DNA of 44,616 bases, taken from assembly GCF_000381045.1 (NCBI RefSeq), contig NZ_KB905744.1:1-44616 (forward strand), given 5' to 3'. The position numbers and the translations under genes were made by a program. Numbering within the stretch: position 1 is the first letter of the stretch; every line of letters starts with the position of its first letter. The DNA comes from Thermus scotoductus DSM 8553. Its GTDB lineage: Bacteria; Deinococcota; Deinococci; Deinococcales; Thermaceae. The notes beneath the pieces are model-generated. The model worked only from the letters and a program-made list of their open reading frames with translations. It had not been told where the DNA came from and searched no databases. Below are positions 14,416-29,905 of the stretch, one piece after another.

Positions 14416-14436
14416 CATGATATGGGTGTGCTCAAG
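14416..14436. promoter_or_regulatory. HAIR-like (CTTGA-N11-TCAAG) candidate operator upstream of dnaK
   Basis: CATGA (14416-14420), 11 nt, TCAAG (14432-14436): one mismatch to CTTGA-N11-TCAAG, the outer frame of the actinobacterial HspR element CTTGAGT-N7-ACTCAAG. The right half GCTCAAG matches 6 of 7. It ends 4 nt before the dnaK -35 box and also lies 52 nt upstream of the divergent ftsH start, so it could act on both genes. The weak left half makes this the least certain of the three such sites. Confidence 0.35.
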
Positions 14437-14489: not shown

Positions 14490-16349
14490 ATGACCAAGGC
14501 AGTGGGCATTGACCTGGGCACCACCAACAGCGTGATCGCCGTCATGGAAGGCGGCAAGCCGGTGGTTCTGGAAAACGCCGAGGGGGAAAGGACCACCCCC
14601 AGCGTGGTGGCCTTCCGGGATGGCGAGACCTTGGTGGGCCGCATGGCCAAGCGCCAAGCGGTCTTAAACCCCGAGGGTACCGTCTTTGAGATCAAGCGGT
14701 TTATCGGCCGCCGCTGGGAGGAGGTCCAGGAGGAGGCCAAGCGGGTCCCCTACAAGGTGGTCCCGGGGCCCGATGGCGGAGTGCGGGTGGAGATTAAGGG
14801 CAAGCTCTACACCCCCGAGGAGATCAGCGCCATGGTCCTCCGCAAGCTGGTGGAGGACGCCTCCAAGAAGCTCGGGGAGAAGATCACCAAGGCGGTGATC
14901 ACCGTGCCCGCCTACTTCAACAACGCCCAGCGGGAGGCCACGGCCAACGCCGGGCGGATTGCGGGCCTCGAGGTCTTGCGCATCATCAACGAGCCCACCG
15001 CTGCCGCTTTGGCCTACGGCCTGGACAAGAAGGGAAACGAAACCGTCTTGGTCTTCGACCTGGGGGGCGGCACCTTTGACGTCACGGTGCTGGAGATCGG
15101 GGAGGGGGTCTTTGAGGTGAAGTCCACCTCCGGGGACACCCACCTGGGCGGGAGCGACATGGACCACGCCATCGTGAACTGGCTGGCCGAGGAGTTCAAG
15201 CGGGAGTACGGGGTGGACCTTAGGGCGGACCGCCAGGCCCTCCAGCGCCTCATTGAGGCCGCGGAGAAGGCCAAGATTGAGCTTTCCAGCACCTTTGAGA
15301 CCACCATCAGCCTGCCCTTCATCGCCCTGGATCCCGCCAGCAAGACCCCCCTCCACCTGGAAAAGAAACTCACCCGGGCCAAGTTTGAGGAGCTCATCGA
15401 GCCCCTCCTCAAGCGCCTCAGGGGCCCGGTGGAGCAGGCCCTGAAGGACGCCGGCCTGACCCCGGCCCAGATCGACGAGGTGATCCTGGTGGGCGGGGCC
15501 ACCCGGGTGCCCGCGGTGCAGAGGGTGGTGAAGGAGCTCTTGGGCAAGGAGCCCAACCGCTCCGTGAACCCCGACGAGGTGGTGGCCATGGGGGCCGCCA
15601 TCCAGGCAGGCGTCCTCATGGGCGAGGTCCGGGATGTGGTCCTTCTGGACGTCACTCCCCTCTCCCTGGGCGTGGAGACCAAGGGCGGGGTGATGACCGT
15701 GCTGATCCCCAGGAACACCACCATCCCCACCCGCAAGTGCGAGATCTTCACCACCGCCGAGCACAACCAGACCGCGGTGGAGATCCACGTCCTCCAGGGC
15801 GAGCGCCCCATGGCCGCGGACAACAAGAGCCTGGGCCGGTTCCGCCTCGAGGGTATCCCCCCCATGCCCGCCGGGGTTCCCCAGATCGAGGTCTGCTTTG
15901 ACATCGACGCCAACGGCATCCTCCACGTGACCGCCAAGGAGAAGTCCACGGGCAAGGAGGCCTCCATCACCATCCAGAACACCACCACCCTCTCCGAGGA
16001 GGAGATAAAGCGGATGATCGAGGAGGCCCAGCGCCATGCGGAGGAAGACCGGCGCCGCCGGGAGCACGCCGAGCTCAAGAACACCCTGGACTCCACCCGC
16101 GTCCAAGCGGAGAGGATCCTCCAGGAGAAGCAAAGCACCCCCGAGGCCAAGGCGCGCCTCGAGGCGGCCATCGCCAGGGCCAAGGAGCTTTCGGAGAAGG
16201 ATGCCTCCGACCCCGAGCTGAAGACCGCCACGGAGGAGCTTCTGAAGGCAGTGGAGGCCTACGAGAAGGCCGCCACCGCCGGGACCACCGGGGCATCCAG
16301 CCGTGGCCCTGACGACGTGATCGACGCCGACTACAAGCCCGCCGACTAA
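14490..16349 (+). CDS. dnaK: Chaperone DnaK (Hsp70)
   Basis: ATP-driven chaperone; in T. thermophilus it forms a stable complex with DnaJ and DafA. The 619-residue product begins [20 protein letters not shown] (phosphate-1 loop). It has [14 protein letters not shown] (phosphate 2), [14 protein letters not shown], the adenosine-binding [14 protein letters not shown], the linker [13 protein letters not shown], the substrate-binding beta domain and a helical lid ending [12 protein letters not shown]. It is the first gene of dnaK-grpE-dnaJ-dafA. A GC hairpin between dnaK and grpE may reduce read-through and keep DnaK in excess. Confidence 0.99.
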
Positions 16350-16969: not shown

Positions 16970-17806
16970 ATGAAGGACTACTACGCCATCCTGGGGGTAC
17001 CGAGAAACGCCACGCAGGAGGAGATCAAGCGGGCCTACAAGCGCCTGGCCCGCCAGTACCACCCCGATGTGAACAAAAGCCCCGAGGCCGAGGAGAAGTT
17101 CAAGGAGATCAACGAGGCCTATGCGGTTCTCTCCGATCCCGAGAAGCGCAGGGTCTACGACACCTACGGCACCGCCACCCCTCCTCCACCCCCGCCCCCT
17201 GGGGGGTACGACTTCTCCGGGTTTGACGTGGAGGACTTCTCCGATTTCTTCCAGGAGCTCTTCGGCGGCGGGCTCTTCGGGGTAGGGCGAAGGGCGCGCC
17301 CCCGCCGCGGCCGCGACCTCAGGGCCGAGCTGCCCCTAAGCCTCGAGGAGGCCTTCCATGGAGGCGAACGGGTAGTGGAGGTGGGGGGAAGGCGGGTTCC
17401 CGTGAAAATCCCCCCGGGGGTGCAGGAAGGGAGCACCATCCGCCTGGCAGGCTTAGGGGGCCCGGGAGACCCTCCCGGGGACCTCCTCCTCACGGTGCGG
17501 CTCTTGCCCCACCCCGTCTTCCGCCTCGAGGGCCAGGACCTCTACGCCACCCTGGACGTCCCTGCCCCTATCGCCGTGGTGGGCGGCAAGGTGCGGGCCC
17601 CCACCTTAGAGGGCCCCGTGGAGGTCACCATCCCCCCCAGAACCCAGGCGGGCAAAAAGCTCCGGCTTAAGGGGAAGGGCTTTCCCGGACCCCATGGCCG
17701 GGGGGACCTCTACTATGAGGTGCGGGTGGTGATCCCCGAGCACCTGACGCCTGAGGAGGAGGAGCTTTGGCGGAAGCTCAAGGAGGTGCGCTATGCTGGC
17801 GCGTAG
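16970..17806 (+). CDS. dnaJ: Chaperone DnaJ (Hsp40), zinc-finger-less type
   Basis: Co-chaperone that stimulates DnaK ATP hydrolysis. The 278-residue protein has a J-domain (about 2-67: [23 protein letters not shown] in [13 protein letters not shown]-equivalent EKRRVYD). A Pro/Gly/Phe-rich linker follows ([32 protein letters not shown]), then two C-terminal beta domains ([39 protein letters not shown]). The Cys-rich zinc domain of E. coli DnaJ is absent and I see no Cys in the protein, matching the known Thermus DnaJ. Its last 14 nt overlap dafA, so translation is coupled. Confidence 0.97.
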
Positions 17807-18029
17807 CTCCTATGTATCCTTAGAGGCTCTGGCGGACTATGGCCTCTCCCTGGGGGTGGTGCGGGCCTACGTGGAGATCGGCTTCGTGGAGCCCCTGGAG
17901 GTGGGGGGTGCCTGGTACTTCCGGGAGGAAGACCTTCTGCGCATGGCCAAGGCGGAACGCATCCGCCGCGATCTGGGGGCCAACCTGGTGGGGGCAGCCT
18001 TGGTGGTGGAGATCCTGGAGCGCGGCTAA
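17793..18029 (+). CDS. dafA: DafA, DnaK-DnaJ assembly factor, with a MerR/CbpM-like fold
   Basis: In T. thermophilus, DafA is the 78-residue subunit that holds DnaK and DnaJ in a ternary complex. Here the product is also 78 residues ([20 protein letters not shown] to VVEILERG) and overlaps dnaJ by 14 nt. The sequence aligns with a MerR-type winged helix as in HspR and Cbp[21 protein letters not shown] (helix-turn-helix), [20 protein letters not shown] (wing), [20 protein letters not shown] (the 'DLGVNLxGAxxVL' helix of CbpM/HspR). It sits where Streptomyces has hspR. Whether it binds DNA is not known to me. Confidence 0.9.
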
Positions 18030-18177: not shown

Positions 18178-18207
18178 CTTGACAATGTTCATATTAAGCG
18201 ATATGAT
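18178..18207 (+). promoter_or_regulatory. clpB promoter overlapped by a HAIR-like operator
   Basis: TTGACA (18179-18184), a 17-bp spacer and TATGAT (18202-18207) form a near-consensus promoter. The inverted repeat CTTGA-N11-TTAAG (18178-18198) overlaps the -35 box and most of the spacer, an arrangement expected of a repressor site. Its left arm CTTGACAATG is identical to that of the palindrome before the histone-fold gene at 25900. Just upstream lies TATCT-ACAC-AGATA (18163-18176), a further small inverted repeat. TAGGAGG precedes the clpB ATG. Confidence 0.6.
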
Positions 18208-18230: not shown

Positions 18231-20816
18231 ATGAACCTGGAACGCTGGACCCAAGCCGCCCGCGAGGCCCTGGCCCAGGCCCAGGTCCTGGCCCGGGAGA
18301 TGAAGCACCAGGCCATCGACCTGCCCCATCTATGGGCGGTTCTCCTGAAAGACCCGACGGGCCTGGCCTGGCGGCTTCTGGAGAGGGCAGGGGGTAACCC
18401 CAAGGCCCTCAAGGAGAGTGCCGAGCGGGAACTGGGCCGCCTGCCCAAGGTGGAGGGGACCGAGGTGGGCCAGTACCTTTCCCAAAGGCTTGCCCGGGCC
18501 CTGGACCGGGCCGAGGCCCTTATGGCCGAGCTCAAGGACCGGTTCGTGGCGGTGGACACCTTGGTGCTGGCCTTGGCGGAGGCCTCGAGGGCCGAGCCCT
18601 CCTTGCAGGTGGGTATTCCCGAAGAAGGCTCCTTAAGAAAAGCCCTGCAGGAACTAAGAGGAGGTAAAACCGTGCAGACGGAACATGCGGAAAGCACCTA
18701 CAACGCCCTGGAGCAGTACGGCATCGACCTCACCAAGCTGGCCGCCGAGGGCAAGCTGGACCCGGTGATCGGCCGGGACGAGGAGATAAGGCGCACCATC
18801 CAGATCCTCCTCCGGCGCACCAAGAACAACCCGGTGCTCATCGGCGAGCCCGGGGTGGGCAAGACCGCCATCGTGGAGGGGCTGGCCCAGCGGATCGTGA
18901 AGGGGGATGTGCCGGAAGGCCTTAAGGGCAAGCGGATCATCTCCTTGCAGATGGGCTCCCTCCTGGCCGGGGCCAAGTACCGGGGCGAGTTTGAGGAGCG
19001 CCTGAAGGCCGTCATCCAGGAGGTGGTACAGAGCCAAGGGGAGATCATCCTCTTCATCGACGAGCTCCACACCGTGGTGGGGGCGGGCAAGGCCGAAGGC
19101 GCCGTGGACGCCGGCAACATGCTGAAGCCCGCCCTGGCCCGGGGGGAGCTTCGGCTTATCGGGGCCACCACCCTGGACGAATACCGGGAGATTGAGAAGG
19201 ACCCCGCTCTGGAAAGGCGCTTCCAGCCCGTTTACGTGGACGAGCCCACGGTGGAGGAGACCATCTCCATCCTGCGGGGCATCAAGGAGAAGTACGAGGT
19301 CCACCACGGGGTGCGCATCTCCGACAGCGCCATCATCGCCGCCGCCACCCTCTCCCATCGGTACATCACGGAAAGGCGCCTCCCCGACAAGGCCATTGAC
19401 CTCATCGACGAGGCCGCAGCCCGCCTGCGCATGGCCCTGGAGAGCGCCCCCGAGGAGATCGATAGCCTGGAGCGGAGGAAGCTCCAGCTGGAGATTGAAA
19501 GGGAAGCCCTCAAGAAGGAGAAGGACCCGGATAGCCAGGAGAGGCTCAAGGCCATTGAGGCCGAGATCGCCCGCCTCTCGGAGGAGATCGCTAGGCTCAG
19601 GGGGGAATGGGAGAAGGAGCGGGAGATCTTGCGCGCCCTAAGGGAGGCCCAGCAGCGCCTGGACGAGGTGCGGCGGCAGATTGAGCTGGCCGAGCGCCAG
19701 TACGACCTGAACCGGGCCGCGGAGCTCCGCTACGGGGAGCTTCCCCGCCTCGAGGCCGAGGTGGAGCGCCTGTCCCAGGCCCTTAAGGGGGCGCGCTTTG
19801 TCCGCCTCGAGGTCACGGAGGAGGACGTGGCCGAGATCGTGGCCCGCTGGACGGGGATCCCCGTGGCCAAGCTCCTGGAAGGGGAAAGGGAAAAGCTCCT
19901 CCGCCTGGAGGAGGAGCTCCACAAGCGGGTGGTGGGCCAGGATGAGGCCATCCGGGCCGTGGCCGACGCCATCCGCAGGGCCAGGGCCGGGCTTAAGGAC
20001 CCGAACCGCCCCATCGGGAGCTTCCTCTTCCTTGGGCCCACGGGGGTGGGGAAGACGGAGCTGGCCAAGGCCATCGCGGCCACCCTCTTTGACACGGAGG
20101 AGGCCATGGTGCGCATTGACATGACGGAGTACATGGAGAAGCACGCGGTCTCCCGCCTCATCGGGGCCCCTCCGGGCTACGTGGGGTACGAGGAAGGGGG
20201 CCAGCTCACGGAGGCCGTGCGGCGGAGGCCCTACACCGTCATCCTCTTCGATGAGGTGGAGAAGGCCCACCCCGACGTCTTCAACATCCTCCTGCAGATC
20301 CTGGACGACGGCCGACTCACGGACTCCCATGGCCGCACCGTGGACTTCCGCAACACCGTGATCATCCTCACCTCCAACCTGGGAAGCCCCCTGATCCTCG
20401 AGGGCATCCAGCAAGGCAAACCCTACGAGAGGATCCGGGAGGAGGTCTTCGCCATCCTGCAGAGGCACTTCCGCCCCGAGTTCCTGAACCGCCTGGACGA
20501 GATCGTGGTCTTCAGGCCCCTCACCCGGGAGCAGCTGCGGGAGATCGTGGAGATCCAGCTCCAAAGCCTCAGGGCCCGCCTGGCGGAAAAGCGCATCACC
20601 CTCACCCTCACCGAGGCCGCCAAGGACTATCTGGCCGAGCGGGGCTACGACCCCGTCTTCGGGGCCAGGCCCCTGAAGCGGGTGATCGCCCGGGAGCTGG
20701 AAACCCCCCTGGCGGTGAAGATCCTGGCCGGGGAGATCAAGGAGGGGGACGCCGTGGTGGTGGACGTCGGGCCCACGGGGCTGGTCTTCCGCAACCCCGA
20801 GCGGGTAGAGGCCTGA
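18231..20816 (+). CDS. clpB: Disaggregase ClpB (Hsp104 family)
   Basis: Hexameric AAA+ chaperone that works with DnaK to rescue aggregated proteins. The 861-residue product aligns end to end with T. thermophilus ClpB: N-domain (1 to about 145), NBD1 with Walker A GEPGVGKT (205-212) and Walker [15 protein letters not shown], a coiled-coil M-domain (about 395-525, [19 protein letters not shown]), NBD2 with GPTGVGKT and [14 protein letters not shown], and a C-terminal small domain. An in-frame GTG at 18672 (codon 148) behind AGAGGAGGT is an apparent internal start for the N-domain-less form known in Thermus. It heads the stress operon ending near 25843. Confidence 0.99.
18655..18674 (+). promoter_or_regulatory. 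Internal ribosome-binding site and GTG start for truncated ClpB
   Basis: AAGAGGAGGT (18655-18664) lies 7 nt before an in-frame GTG (18672-18674) in clpB, at the junction between the N-domain and NBD1. Initiation here would give a 714-residue ClpB lacking the N-domain, a form reported for other ClpB proteins including that of T. thermophilus. Confidence 0.65.
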
Positions 20817-25429: not shown

Positions 25430-25843
25430 ATGCTGGAGAAGCTCTGGCCCTTCGGCCGGAACCGGGTGCGCAAGGCCTTTGAGGAAGCGCTAGAGAAGGT
25501 TTTCAAGGAGGAGGGCGAAACCCTGGAGCCCCTTTCGGAGCTTGCCGAGCACGAGGACCACTATCTGTTGCGGGTGGAGGTTCCGGGCCTGGGCCCCGAG
25601 AACCTGGAGGTGCGCCTCGAGGGGGACCAGCTGGTGGTGGAAGGGGAGAAAAAAGAGGAAAAGCGCACCAAACACCTCTCGGAGATCGTCTACGGGCGCA
25701 TCTACCGCGCCTACCTCCTCCCCAAGGACGCCAAGAAGGAAGGCATTGAGGCCAAGCTCCACAAGGGCGTGCTGGAGGTGAGGATCCCCCGGGAGAAGCG
25801 CCCGCCCGAGCCCCCCGTGAGGATCCCCGTGCAGGAGGGGTAA
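25430..25843 (+). CDS. Small heat shock protein (Hsp20/alpha-crystallin), second copy
   Basis: A 137-residue holdase, more diverged than the first copy. The basic N-terminus (MLEKLWPFGRNRVRKAFEEA) is followed by the alpha-crystallin domain (SELAEHEDHYLLRVEVPGLG, LVVEGEKKEEKRTKHLSEIV, YGRIYRAYLLP, KGVLEVRIPREKR). The tail ends in VRIPVQEG, where IPV is an IxI/V oligomerisation motif. ATG 25430 follows AAAGGAGGTGAACC. It is the last gene before the terminator at 25851. Confidence 0.94.
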   Translation: MLEKLWPFGRNRVRKAFEEALEKVFKEEGETLEPLSELAEHEDHYLLRVEVPGLGPENLEVRLEGDQLVVEGEKKEEKRTKHLSEIVYGRIYRAYLLPKDAKKEGIEAKLHKGVLEVRIPREKRPPEPPVRIPVQEG

Positions 25844-25850
25844 AGACCCC

Positions 25851-25890
25851 ACCAACCCTTGGCCTTCCGCCTTGGATTGGTTGATTTTTT
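25851..25890 (+). terminator. Rho-independent terminator of the clpB stress operon
   Basis: ACCAACCC and GGATTGGT pair with one mismatch around a 15-nt loop, followed by TGATTTTTT. It lies 8 nt after the second hsp20 stop and ahead of the promoter of the histone-fold gene. Confidence 0.55.
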
Positions 25891-25899
25891 ATCAGGTCT

Positions 25900-25929
25900 C
25901 TTGACAATGCCATTGTCAAGTCTTACCCT
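25900..25929 (+). promoter_or_regulatory. Promoter of the histone-fold gene with a perfect palindromic operator
   Basis: The arms CTTGACAATG and CATTGTCAAG flank a single C and form a perfect palindrome at 25900-25920. It contains TTGACA (25901-25906). A TACCCT -10 (25924-25929) follows at 17 bp. The outer frame CTTGA-N11-TCAAG has the exact spacing of the HspR element HAIR (CTTGAGT-N7-ACTCAAG). A repressor bound here would block the -35 box. GAGGAGGTG precedes ATG 25951. Confidence 0.7.
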
Positions 25930-25950: not shown

Positions 25951-26397
25951 ATGCTGATGAAAATAGCCGAGTTTGAGAAGCTCTTCCGCCTGGCTGCGGG
26001 CCTGGATGTGGACAAGAACGACCTTAAGCGCCTTTCGGACTTTCTCCGCAACAAGGTCTACGACCTGCTGGTGGTAGCCGAGCGTCACGCCAAGTACAAC
26101 GGCCGGGACATCATCTTTGAGCCGGATGTGCCCATTACCAAGGGGCTTCAGGAAACCCTCAAGGAGTTCCGCGCTATGGACACCACCTTGGAGCTCAAAC
26201 CCGTTCTGGACACTCTGGCTACCCTTCCCCCTTTGGATCTGGAGATCTCCGAGGACGTGCGCAACCTGCTTCCCGAGATCGCCGGGGCTCTGGTGGTGGC
26301 CTACGCCCGGGTGCTGAAGGAGCTGGACCCCATGCTTAAGAACCCGCAAACCGAACACCATGAGCGGGCTGAGCGGGTCTTTAACCTCCTTCTCTGA
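25951..26397 (+). CDS. DUF1931 histone-fold protein
   Basis: A 148-residue protein matching the T. thermophilus DUF1931 protein of known structure, which folds as two fused histone-like units. The first half has FEKLFRLAAGLDVDKNDLKR, LSDFLRNKVYDLLVVAERHA and KYNGRDIIFEPDVPITKGLQ, the helix-strand-helix pattern of archaeal histones. The second half (LDLEISEDVRNLLPEIAGAL, VVAYARVLKELDPML) repeats it. DNA binding is inferred from the fold and not established to my knowledge. It is the first gene of a unit with psiE and khtTU and is controlled by the palindromic promoter, suggesting a stress-linked role. Confidence 0.9.
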   Translation: MLMKIAEFEKLFRLAAGLDVDKNDLKRLSDFLRNKVYDLLVVAERHAKYNGRDIIFEPDVPITKGLQETLKEFRAMDTTLELKPVLDTLATLPPLDLEISEDVRNLLPEIAGALVVAYARVLKELDPMLKNPQTEHHERAERVFNLLL

Positions 26398-26399
26398 GG

Positions 26400-26819
26400 A
26401 TGAGCCAGGATCTACCCCTTTTTCTCTACCGCCGGGCCACCCGGCTGGTCTTCAATCTGGTGCTGGTGGCCCTTCTTATCGGGCTTTTCGTGGGGGTGGG
26501 GCGCACCTTCTTGGAGCTGGGCCTCACCCTGAGCGAGCCCACGGTGCGCCTGGGCCTCAAGGAGCTGATCACCAACGTCCTTAGCCTGGTGATCGTCCTG
26601 GAGCTGGTCCGGGTCTTCGTAGATTATTTCGAACTTGAGAGGGTGCGCCTCGAGGTTCTCCTGGAAATCGGCGTGGCCCTGGCCCTGCGGGAACTTCTTC
26701 TCCTCCTCTTCGCCGAAAAGCTCTCCGGGCTGGACCTCTTCTTCTGGACCCTGGGCATTTTGGCCCTGGTGGCCGGGCGCACCCTGGCCGTGCAGTTTTC
26801 CCCCAGGAGGCAGGCATGA
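26400..26819 (+). CDS. psiE: PsiE-family membrane protein
   Basis: A 139-residue integral membrane protein of the phosphate-starvation-inducible PsiE family, molecular function unknown. Four hydrophobic helices are visible: LVFNLVLVALLIGLFVGVG, LITNVLSLVIVLELVRVFVD, LLEIGVALALRELLLLLF and LFFWTLGILALVAGRTLAV. The LELVRVFVDYF segment is a family hallmark. ATG 26400 lies 2 nt after the histone-fold gene and its TGA overlaps the next ATG. Confidence 0.8.
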   Translation: MSQDLPLFLYRRATRLVFNLVLVALLIGLFVGVGRTFLELGLTLSEPTVRLGLKELITNVLSLVIVLELVRVFVDYFELERVRLEVLLEIGVALALRELLLLLFAEKLSGLDLFFWTLGILALVAGRTLAVQFSPRRQA

Positions 26820-27292
26820 GGGTAGAGGAAGCAATCCTTCCCGGCGTGGGGCGGAAGTACACCATCACGGTGCAAAGCGGCGACCGGATCGTCATCGTGG
26901 TCCACCACTCGGGGAAACGGGAACTGCAGTACTTTGAAGCCGGAGGCGAGGGGGATGAACCCGCCATGGCCCTGGACCTGACGGATGAGGAGGCCCGGGA
27001 GCTGGGGGCCATTCTGGCGGGGGTGCTCTTCCACCCCGAGGCGGTGGGGGACACCCAAAGCAAGCTTGGGCAGAAGGTCATTGAGTGGATCAAGGTCCTG
27101 CCCGGTTCCAAGCTCGCGGGCAGGCGGGTGGGGGAGCTTACCCTGCCCCCCGGAGCCCACCTCCTGGCCGTGGACCGCCCTGGGGCTCCCCTCATCCCTA
27201 ACCCCAGCCCCGACACCCTTCTGGAAACGGGAGACACCCTGGTGGTGGCGGGAAGCCGCGAGGCCGTGGAAGCCTTGAAAAGGACCCTCTGA
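26816..27292 (+). CDS. KhtT-like antiporter regulatory subunit with TrkA-C domain
   Basis: A 158-residue soluble protein. The N-terminal half (VEEAILPGVGRKYTITVQSG, DRIVIVVHHSGKRELQYFEA) resembles the KhtT/AmhM N-domain. The C-terminal half (LPGSKLAGRRVGELTLPPGA, LETGDTLVVAGSREAVEALK) is a TrkA-C (RCK_C) ligand-binding domain. Such subunits gate the adjacent CPA2 antiporter in response to pH or nucleotide ligands such as c-di-AMP; the ligand here is unknown. It overlaps psiE by 4 nt and khtU by 1 nt. Confidence 0.85.
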   Translation: MRVEEAILPGVGRKYTITVQSGDRIVIVVHHSGKRELQYFEAGGEGDEPAMALDLTDEEARELGAILAGVLFHPEAVGDTQSKLGQKVIEWIKVLPGSKLAGRRVGELTLPPGAHLLAVDRPGAPLIPNPSPDTLLETGDTLVVAGSREAVEALKRTL

Positions 27293-28425
27293 TGCACCCC
27301 TCCGTGGAGGCCTTCGCCTTGGCCGCAGGGCTTTTGGCCCTGGGGGCGGCTTTAGTCCACCGCTTTGGCTTTCCCCCCTTGCCCGTCTACCTCCTCACGG
27401 GGTTGCTGGTGGGCCAGCGCCTGCCCGTGCAGGACCTGGAACCCTTACCCTCCCTAGGCCTTCTCCTTCTCCTTTTCTCCGTGGGCCTGGAGTTCGGCCC
27501 CGACCGGCTTAAGGGGCTCTCGGGGAAAGCAGTCCAGGCGGGTTTTTACGATGCCTTGGCCCTGCCCCTGGGCTTCCTCCTGGGGCTTTTGGCGGGGCTG
27601 GACCTCCGCGGCGCTGCCCTTTTGGCCGGGGCCATCTACGTGAGCTCCAGCGCCGTGATCGTCAAGCTCATCATCGACCTGCGTCGGGTGGCTAACCCCG
27701 AAAGCGAGGTGGTTCTGGTCACCCTTGTTCTAGAAGACCTTGTGGTCATCCTCTTACTTGCCCTCCTCGGAGGCCAAGGACCGGAAGGGGTGATAGTAAG
27801 CCTTTTGCTAGGCGGAATCTACCTATTTCTAGCCAACCTTTTCGGATACCGACTGGTATCCTTTTTAGAAAGTCTTTCAGACGAACTCGTCCTGCTTTTG
27901 GGGGCTGCCTTTACCACTGGAACAGCCCTTCTTTTCCATGCCCTCGGGGTTTCCGAGAGCCTGGGCGCCTTCCTGGCGGGAAGCCTGGCGGCCTCCTTGG
28001 GACTTCGCGAGCGGTTTGAGCGGCTCTTCGGTCCCGTGCGGGACCTGGGGGTGGCCCTTTTCTTCCTGGTGGTGGGGGCCAGCGCCCGGGATCTCTTCCA
28101 AGGCTTGACCCCGACGCTGGTGGTCTTGGCCCTCCTGGGCCTTTTGGTCAAGCTTCCCCTTAACTTCCTGGGAGGGGCCCGGGCAGGGCTTTCCCGCAAG
28201 CGCCGGCTCTATAGCGCCTTCTACCTGGTGCCTCGAGGGGAGTTCAACCTGGTCTTGGGGGCCTTAGCGCAAGCCCAAGGTTACCCCCTGGTGGCCCAAG
28301 TGGCGGTGCTTTTGGTGCTCCTATCCGTTCCTTTGGGAGCCTTGCTCATCCGTTTTGCCCCTGAGCTCGGAAGGCTCCTCCTACGGGAAACCCCTAGTCC
28401 CCGCCGCCCGGCCCGCTCCTCTTAG
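27292..28425 (+). CDS. KhtU/KefB-like cation:proton antiporter (CPA2)
   Basis: A 377-residue membrane antiporter, probably K+/H+ or Na+/H+, with 11-12 hydrophobic helices. Family features are FPPLPVYLLTGLLVGQ, LGLLLLLFSVGLEFGPDRLK, AIYVSSSAVIVKLIIDL, LVLEDLVVILLLALL (Glu-Asp pair in the ion-binding helix) and GVSESLGAFLAGSLAAS. There is no C-terminal RCK_N domain, consistent with regulation in trans by the preceding TrkA-C protein. Codons in about 27720-27900 (many CTA, TTA, GGA, CGA, AGT) are unlike the GC-rich remainder of the gene, suggesting a recombined segment. Confidence 0.9.
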   Translation: MHPSVEAFALAAGLLALGAALVHRFGFPPLPVYLLTGLLVGQRLPVQDLEPLPSLGLLLLLFSVGLEFGPDRLKGLSGKAVQAGFYDALALPLGFLLGLLAGLDLRGAALLAGAIYVSSSAVIVKLIIDLRRVANPESEVVLVTLVLEDLVVILLLALLGGQGPEGVIVSLLLGGIYLFLANLFGYRLVSFLESLSDELVLLLGAAFTTGTALLFHALGVSESLGAFLAGSLAASLGLRERFERLFGPVRDLGVALFFLVVGASARDLFQGLTPTLVVLALLGLLVKLPLNFLGGARAGLSRKRRLYSAFYLVPRGEFNLVLGALAQAQGYPLVAQVAVLLVLLSVPLGALLIRFAPELGRLLLRETPSPRRPARSS

Positions 28426-28449: not shown

Positions 28450-29283
28450 ATGGAAATCTTTTTCCAGCTCTTTTGGCTCTTTTTTATCCTTTCCGTCCTC
28501 ACCCCTTACCTGCAACAGCAGATGCTCCTGGGGGCGCGGGCCAGGAAGATGGCCGAGCTGGAGCGCAAACGGAAAAGCCGGGTCATCACCCTCATCCACC
28601 GCCAGGAAGCCGTAAGCTTCCTGGGCATCCCCATAAGCCGCTTCATCAACATCGACGACTCGGAGCAGGTCCTAAGGGCCATCCGCCTCACCGACAAAAA
28701 CGTGCCCATAGACCTCATCCTCCACACCCCAGGGGGCCTGGTCCTGGCGGCGGAGCAGATCGCCGAGGCCCTCTTGCGCCACCCCGCCAAGGTCACGGTC
28801 TTTGTGCCCCACTACGCCATGTCCGGGGGTACCCTCATCGCCTTGGCCGCCGACGAGATCGTGATGGACGAAAACGCCGTCCTCGGTCCCGTAGACCCCC
28901 AGCTTGGGCAGTACCCCGCGGCGAGCATCCTCAAGGTCTTGGAGAAGAAGCCCCTAAGCGAGGTGGACGACCAGACCTTGATCCTTGCGGATGTGGCTGA
29001 GAAGGCCCTAAAGCAGGTGAAGGCTACGGTGAAGAACCTCCTCCTTAAGCACATGCCGGAGGAAAAAGCCGAGGAAGTGGCCCATCTCCTTTCCCAGGGC
29101 ACCTGGACCCATGACTACCCCATTGATGTGGATCAGGCTAGGTCCTTGGGCTTGAACATCTCCACCGAGATGCCCCTCGAGGTCTACGAGCTCATGGACC
29201 TCTACCCCCAGGCCCAGGGGGGTAAGCCCAGCGTGCAGTACGTGCCCGTACCCTATCGTCACCAGCAGCCCGGGAGGCCATAG
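28450..29283 (+). CDS. Membrane-anchored ClpP-fold serine protease (SDH proteinase family)
   Basis: A 277-residue protein with one N-terminal membrane helix (FFQLFWLFFILSVLTPYLQQ). The crotonase/ClpP-fold domain is of the 'serine dehydrogenase proteinase' family, related to SppA and ClpP. LILHTPGGLVLAAEQIAEAL forms the oxyanion-side loop, and VPHYAMSGGTLIALAADEIV carries the likely nucleophile Ser125. ENAVLGPVDPQLGQYPAAS follows, with Asp. It probably cleaves membrane or membrane-proximal proteins in the cytoplasm. It is immediately followed by a rhomboid protease gene, suggesting joint membrane protein quality control. Confidence 0.85.
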   Translation: MEIFFQLFWLFFILSVLTPYLQQQMLLGARARKMAELERKRKSRVITLIHRQEAVSFLGIPISRFINIDDSEQVLRAIRLTDKNVPIDLILHTPGGLVLAAEQIAEALLRHPAKVTVFVPHYAMSGGTLIALAADEIVMDENAVLGPVDPQLGQYPAASILKVLEKKPLSEVDDQTLILADVAEKALKQVKATVKNLLLKHMPEEKAEEVAHLLSQGTWTHDYPIDVDQARSLGLNISTEMPLEVYELMDLYPQAQGGKPSVQYVPVPYRHQQPGRP

Positions 29284-29284
29284 G

Positions 29285-29905
29285 GTGTTTCCCCTCTACG
29301 ACATCAACCACGCCCGCAGGCCCGCTTTCGTGGTCAAGGGCCTGGTGTTTCTCAACGCCTTAGCCTTTTTGTGGCAACTTTCCGTGGGCCTGGAGTGGTC
29401 TGCCCAGGCCTACGGCTTTATCCCTGCCTTGTTCTTTCAGGACCCTGTGGGCCAAGGCTACCGCCTCCTCACCAGCATGTTCCTCCACGGGAGCTTTTTT
29501 CATATTCTTTCCAATATGTGGTTCCTCTGGGTCTTCGGGGACAACGTGGAGGACCGCATGGGCCACGGGCGCTTCCTCCTCTTCTACCTCCTGGGGGGGC
29601 TAGCCGCCGCCTTGGCCCAGGGGCTTTTCTCCCTCACCTCCACCATCCCCATGATCGGGGCCAGCGGGGCGGTCTCGGCGGTGCTGGGGGCGTATTACAT
29701 CCTCTTCCCCAGGGCCTACGTGGTCTCGGTGATCCTCTTCGTCTTCCCCCTCTTCGTCACCTTCCCCGCGGGGTTCTACATCGGGTACTGGGCCTTTCTT
29801 CAACTCTTCCAGGGGCTTTTGGGCCTACCCGGGGTGGCCTGGTGGGCCCACCTGGGAGGCTTCCTCTTTGGCCTCCTCCTGGCCCGGCGGTTCCTTCGCC
29901 CATAA
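29285..29905 (+). CDS. Rhomboid family intramembrane serine protease
   Basis: A 206-residue, six-helix membrane protein that cleaves substrates within the bilayer. Family motifs are RLLTSMFLHGSFFHILSNMW (helix 2, with His and Asn), the catalytic GASGAVSAVLGAYY (Ser127) and WWAHLGGFLFGLLLARR with the catalytic His189. ATG is absent: GTG 29285 lies 1 nt after the protease stop, so the two are co-translated. No terminator is obvious in the 108 bp to the convergent mrpG. Confidence 0.94.
   Translation: MFPLYDINHARRPAFVVKGLVFLNALAFLWQLSVGLEWSAQAYGFIPALFFQDPVGQGYRLLTSMFLHGSFFHILSNMWFLWVFGDNVEDRMGHGRFLLFYLLGGLAAALAQGLFSLTSTIPMIGASGAVSAVLGAYYILFPRAYVVSVILFVFPLFVTFPAGFYIGYWAFLQLFQGLLGLPGVAWWAHLGGFLFGLLLARRFLRP

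Follow-up and report, generated by a model that had tools for sequence, protein, structure and literature searches.

The 44,616-nucleotide (44.6-kb) stretch of Thermus scotoductus DSM 8553 DNA analysed here, hereafter the window, holds a dnaK-grpE-dnaJ-dafA-clpB-hsp20 cluster upstream of a perfect palindrome (Table 1). The upstream cluster also encodes a release-factor-like protein, ferritin, peroxiredoxin, glutaredoxin, thioredoxin (the last two named by sequence appearance) and, besides the hsp20 gene already named, a second Hsp20, Hsp20b. The palindrome lies 30 bp before a DUF1931 gene, whose product has a pseudodimeric histone fold and is the ortholog of TTHA1479 (PDB 1WWI). It is followed by genes for a PsiE-like membrane protein, a KhtTU-like antiporter pair, a serine protease and a rhomboid-like protein, with gaps of −4 to 24 bp between consecutive genes of the series and a gene order kept in most of the genus. 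The DUF1931, psiE and KhtTU-like identities given in a preliminary description of this DNA were borne out by domain matches. The protease gene likely shares an operon with DUF1931, and the rhomboid-like gene is likely its last member. The hairpin between hsp20b and DUF1931 is probably a terminator isolating this operon; it was not found in a strict scan of the window.

Table 1. Features of the chaperone cluster and the DUF1931 region, in window positions
Feature	Position	Strand	Evidence
Related candidate operator, ahead of the dnaK −35 box, CATGATATGGGTGTGCTCAAG	14416..14436	+	Aligned promoters; CTTGATA-N7-RCTCAAG in other families
dnaK	14490..16349	+	PF00012
dafA-like gene, small MerR_2/CbpM-related protein	17793..18029	+	PF13591
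Related candidate operator, at the clpB promoter, CTTGACAATGTTCATATTAAG	18178..18198	+	Aligned promoters
clpB	18231..20816	+	TIGR03346, 1345 bits versus cut-off 1232
Second hsp20 (hsp20b), last gene before the palindrome	25430..25843	+	PF00011
Hairpin then T6, between hsp20b and DUF1931	25851..25890	+	Fold −13.2 kcal/mol
Upstream half-site TATCA	25890..25894	+	Column conservation in aligned promoters
Perfect palindrome CTTGACAATG-C-CATTGTCAAG = CTTGACAATGCCATTGTCAAG	25900..25920	+	Read from sequence
−35 box TTGACA, within the left arm	25901..25906	+	Sequence; Thermus DUF1931 promoters
−10 box TACCCT (TAnnnT), weak	25924..25929	+	Sequence; orthologous promoters
DUF1931 gene	25951..26397	+	PF09123, E 3.5e-57; PDB match, E 3.7e-82
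psiE-like membrane protein gene	26400..26819	+	PF06146
KhtT-like regulatory subunit gene, TrkA_C domain	26816..27292	+	PF02080
KhtU-like CPA2 cation/proton antiporter gene	27292..28425	+	PF00999; TIGR00932 below curated cut-off
SDH-type (ClpP-like) serine protease gene	28450..29283	+	PF01972
Rhomboid-like membrane protein gene	29285..29905	+	ORF, sequence appearance only; synteny

As claimed in the preliminary description, the palindrome consists of two perfect 10-bp arms around a single C and overlaps a promoter, covering the −35 box and the spacer, with 17 bp between TTGACA and a TAnnnT −10 box. This −10 box is weak (3/6 bases matching), TAnnnT stands near the corresponding position in most orthologous DUF1931 promoters, and a strict promoter scan of the window did not list TTGACA-17-TACCCT. 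The TTGA of the −35 box is invariant in Thermus DUF1931 promoters and the following C is present in 15 of 17; TCAA at −8 to −5 of the frame is common to DUF1931 and clpB promoters. The outer frame CTTGA-N11-TCAAG, previously likened to that of HAIR, is indeed present, as the sole copy in the window, and none occurred in dinucleotide shuffles of the window; a scan of viral contigs for the exact palindrome returned nothing. The HAIR consensus, as quoted in PMC6102357, is CTTGAGT-N7-ACTCAAG. This full Streptomyces consensus is not matched, the inner two arm bases being CA/TG rather than GT/AC, and we therefore regard the element as the HAIR type of this order rather than a Streptomyces consensus copy. 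Palindromes with arms of at least 10 bp and a spacer of 1 are expected 0.12 times per window, and with spacers of 0–10 there are 10 in the window against 2.2 expected, so that palindromicity alone is a weak hint; the element is only mildly unusual in this respect, and the case for it therefore rests on comparison.

Alignment of Thermus promoters revealed the same 7-N7-7 frame at three promoters, those of dnaK, clpB and DUF1931. On the clpB promoter (TTGACA-17-TATGAT) it reads CTTGACA-N7-TRTCAAG in most of the 27 Thermus genomes compared, while a CATGAYA-N7-RCTCAAS version lies directly upstream of the dnaK −35 box in nearly all of them. Elsewhere in the order, other families carry CTTGATA-N7-RCTCAAG at dnaK, as in CTTGATATAACCACACTCAAG of G027, and their clpB site is represented, for example, by CTTGACATCGGTCCACTCAAG. 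The order-wide frame at dnaK and clpB, CTTGAYA-N7-RCTCAAG, has the right arm of the published HAIR, and we propose it as the putative local consensus of a HAIR-type operator. A class-wide search aimed at Deinococcus dnaK promoters returned the same order only, and the comparison refers to that order. In Thermus clpB promoters the operator's right arm passes into a nearly invariant TATCAAGTGATATGCT stretch.

A weight matrix trained on dnaK and clpB sites only, with the DUF1931 sites left out, placed the palindrome at the top of the window with 26.5 bits, ahead of clpB (25.1), dnaK (22.8) and the next site (9.0); 20 Markov sequences as long as the window gave at most about 16 bits. A profile built from 67 sites, again without DUF1931 sites, was run over the whole 2.07-Mb genome and reported a single place, positions 25900–25920, on both strands. 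Its E-values were near 0.6 and it missed the genome's own dnaK and clpB sites, both members of the training set; the scan is thus specific and not sensitive, and its silence elsewhere means little. Across Thermus all matches of this profile but one fell on dnaK, clpB or DUF1931 promoters, and its best matches in related genera of the family were clpB promoters and hsp20 promoters, the latter absent from the training set, besides two ambiguous loci (G068 and G051). The exception is an HspR-type site, GTTGACAATACCACACTCAAC, among AACCTTCACC repeats close to the end of a small contig (G001:C13; L181:54-73), before an uncharacterised gene; this contig may be a mobile replicon.

Counting CTTGA-N11-TCAAG was rejected as a regulon finder, being unspecific and, with one mismatch allowed, yielding mostly coding-looking matches. 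A palindrome just before tatA, CTTGACCTCAAGAGGGTCAAG (L039:1501-1521; G000:C7:49379-49399), is of a conserved type, CTTGACC-N7-GGTCAAG, that recurs across some eight Thermus genomes; the palindrome fits the frame but not the HspR profile, and was set aside. The sequence CTTGACTTTCATACACTCAAT before a nitrite/sulfite-reductase-like gene (L221:1468-1488; G000:C14:24867) has a HAIR-like right arm.

Conservation in Thermus, proposed earlier as a check on the HspR-element reading, held for the frame and not for the perfect palindrome. TTGA-N11-[T/G/C]CAA is retained in 15/17 Thermus DUF1931 promoters, and the perfect form occurs in this genome only among those compared. The left arm coincides with the −35 box and would be conserved for that reason anyway. 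In the right arm, CAA stands at the HAIR position (+17 to +19) in 15 of the 17 DUF1931 promoters having a TTGAYA −35 box; after removal of near-duplicates it is found in 8/10 distinct DUF1931 promoters versus 2/13 controls (Fisher p = 0.003), the controls being a small set of promoter-like TTGAYN sequences from other Thermus DNA. The right arm is poor in several DUF1931 promoters, reading GCGCAAT (3/7 matching), and in several genomes the site is absent or the gene lacks a promoter of its own. In two of them (G013 and G016), 29–36 bp separate hsp20b from the start of DUF1931; this short gap holds no hairpin and no promoter of the gene's own, so its transcription would depend on the clpB promoter. 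Whether through its own HAIR-type promoter or through clpB read-through, DUF1931 would be under the same control. Two further genomes (G001 and G002) have the hairpin before DUF1931 without a HAIR-type promoter, and in 5/27 (G003, G015, G018, G023 and G025) the gene is decayed or absent while the neighbouring cluster remains.

The HspR gene of this genome was found on contig C4 (G000:C4:27969-28664; L050/L130), and its product has 98% identity with its closest named relative, from Thermus brockianus. Thermus HspR scores 389.6 bits against NF047377 (cut-off 300), named in NCBIfam as ‘HspR, fused homodimer type’, and also matches NF047375. HspR homologs are encoded in all 27 Thermus genomes, as fragments where assemblies break within the gene. 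An apparent loss in four genomes (G001, G002, G012 and G025) was rejected, as gene fragments, some at contig ends, are present; these assemblies thus break in the repeated gene. Most Thermus HspR genes are open frames of 235–245 aa in which two nearly identical HspR domains are fused. The near-complete genome G019 has a single HspR domain, perhaps through assembly collapse. Four families of the order have the fused form, and a fifth, probably Trueperaceae, has single-domain HspR.

The HspR-element reading put forward in the preliminary description gains support from the shared frame at dnaK and clpB, the sole genome-profile match and the occurrence of HspR in all the genomes of the genus. Alternatively, the site could be the operator of a different dimeric regulator that has the dnaK/clpB cluster among its targets as well, for example some other MerR-family protein or a sensor of metals or redox state. 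In this predicted HspR site the inner bases of the arms are not those of Streptomyces HAIR, these genomes encode further MerR-type homologs of low similarity, and redox and ferritin genes lie nearby, all of which would suit such a regulator. However, the motif marks the classic HspR targets dnaK and clpB, as well as hsp20 in related genera, RCTCAAG, its right arm, is that of HAIR, and HspR is conserved in the genus; we consider another regulator unlikely.

The low but real expectation for bare palindromes and the confinement of the perfect form to one genome would both agree with a chance palindrome, in which a good −35 box is mirrored by its spacer and no regulator is involved. Such an accident is very improbable in view of the first rank that independent profiles give the site in both window and genome, and of the excess of CAA over the control rate in the orthologs. 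Still harder to credit is an inverted repeat acting as an RNA hairpin that would terminate or process transcripts reading through from hsp20b. The arms could pair, and a separate T6 hairpin lies just upstream, but the stem is A+T-rich, the loop is tiny, no T-run follows the repeat, and the orthologs retain CAA rather than stem pairing. Because the −35 box and spacer are covered, the palindrome lies outside the transcript of its own promoter; its A+T-richness and its seat on the −35 box also led us to reject it as a transcription terminator.

The palindrome matches the signals of the adjacent main heat-shock genes, and thus HspR probably controls the DUF1931 gene together with its operon. Starting from what is directly established, namely the site, its match to the dnaK and clpB operators, the conserved frame and the presence of HspR, we regard it as highly probable that the palindrome is an HspR operator, repressing the DUF1931-psiE-khtT-khtU-protease-rhomboid operon until proteotoxic stress. 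We infer that HspR binds the site, that DnaK serves as co-repressor, and that the six genes form a single, heat-induced transcript. In unstressed cells HspR, mostly a fused double-domain ‘homodimer’, would cover the −35 box and block RNA polymerase, aided, by analogy with Streptomyces, by free DnaK. Under proteotoxic stress, misfolded proteins would draw DnaK away and HspR would release the DNA, leading to joint induction of dnaK, clpB and the DUF1931 operon.

DUF1931 proteins have a histone fold with solved structures, lack DNA-binding residues and have no assigned role (PMC12701072, PMC11390915). Since these residues are lacking, the protein more likely acts in protein or membrane stress than in DNA packing. 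The histone-fold protein of T. thermophilus is among the highly expressed proteins, presumably without heat shock (PMC10627809), which counts against the HspR reading. With somewhat less confidence than for the operator, we suggest that this bacterial histone-fold protein belongs to the HspR regulon as a genuine heat-shock protein. It would be co-produced with a K+/H+-type antiporter and two membrane/serine proteases, and would probably serve in protein or membrane stress rather than in DNA packing. Its placement under the chaperone repressor would point to stress physiology and makes its role concretely testable. The Thermus-type HspR operator would also gain a usable consensus, and the heat-shock cluster seems to have three separately controlled promoters with one common operator type.

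HspR, HAIR and fused HspR are already known, and what is new is the histone-fold operon as a predicted member of the HspR regulon. We found no paper on HspR in Thermus or on DUF1931 regulation in a search that covered few subscription papers. Within the DUF1931 pseudodimeric histone family (PDB 1WWI and 1R4V), the Thermus gene is orthologous to TTHA1479/1WWI, whereas regulation of the family is not described in the literature found. NF047377 covers Thermus HspR above its curated cut-off but identifies just the regulator and does not extend to target genes. In Deinococcus radiodurans, of the same phylum as Thermus, HspR represses chaperone and protease genes via HAIR sites near promoters (Schmid et al. 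2005, as cited in PMC6888292); the literature consulted names no DUF1931 operon among its targets there. The closest parallel in the operator itself is with the Streptomyces HAIR/HspR regulon (dnaK operon and clpB), which shares the CTTGA-N11-TCAAG inverted repeat at dnaK and clpB promoters and an HspR homolog. Streptomyces HspR is a repressor with DnaK as co-repressor and is released under proteotoxic stress. In contrast to the Streptomyces system, Thermus has CTTGAYA instead of CTTGAGT as the left arm, its HspR is mostly a fused double-domain protein, and its predicted regulon takes in the DUF1931 operon.
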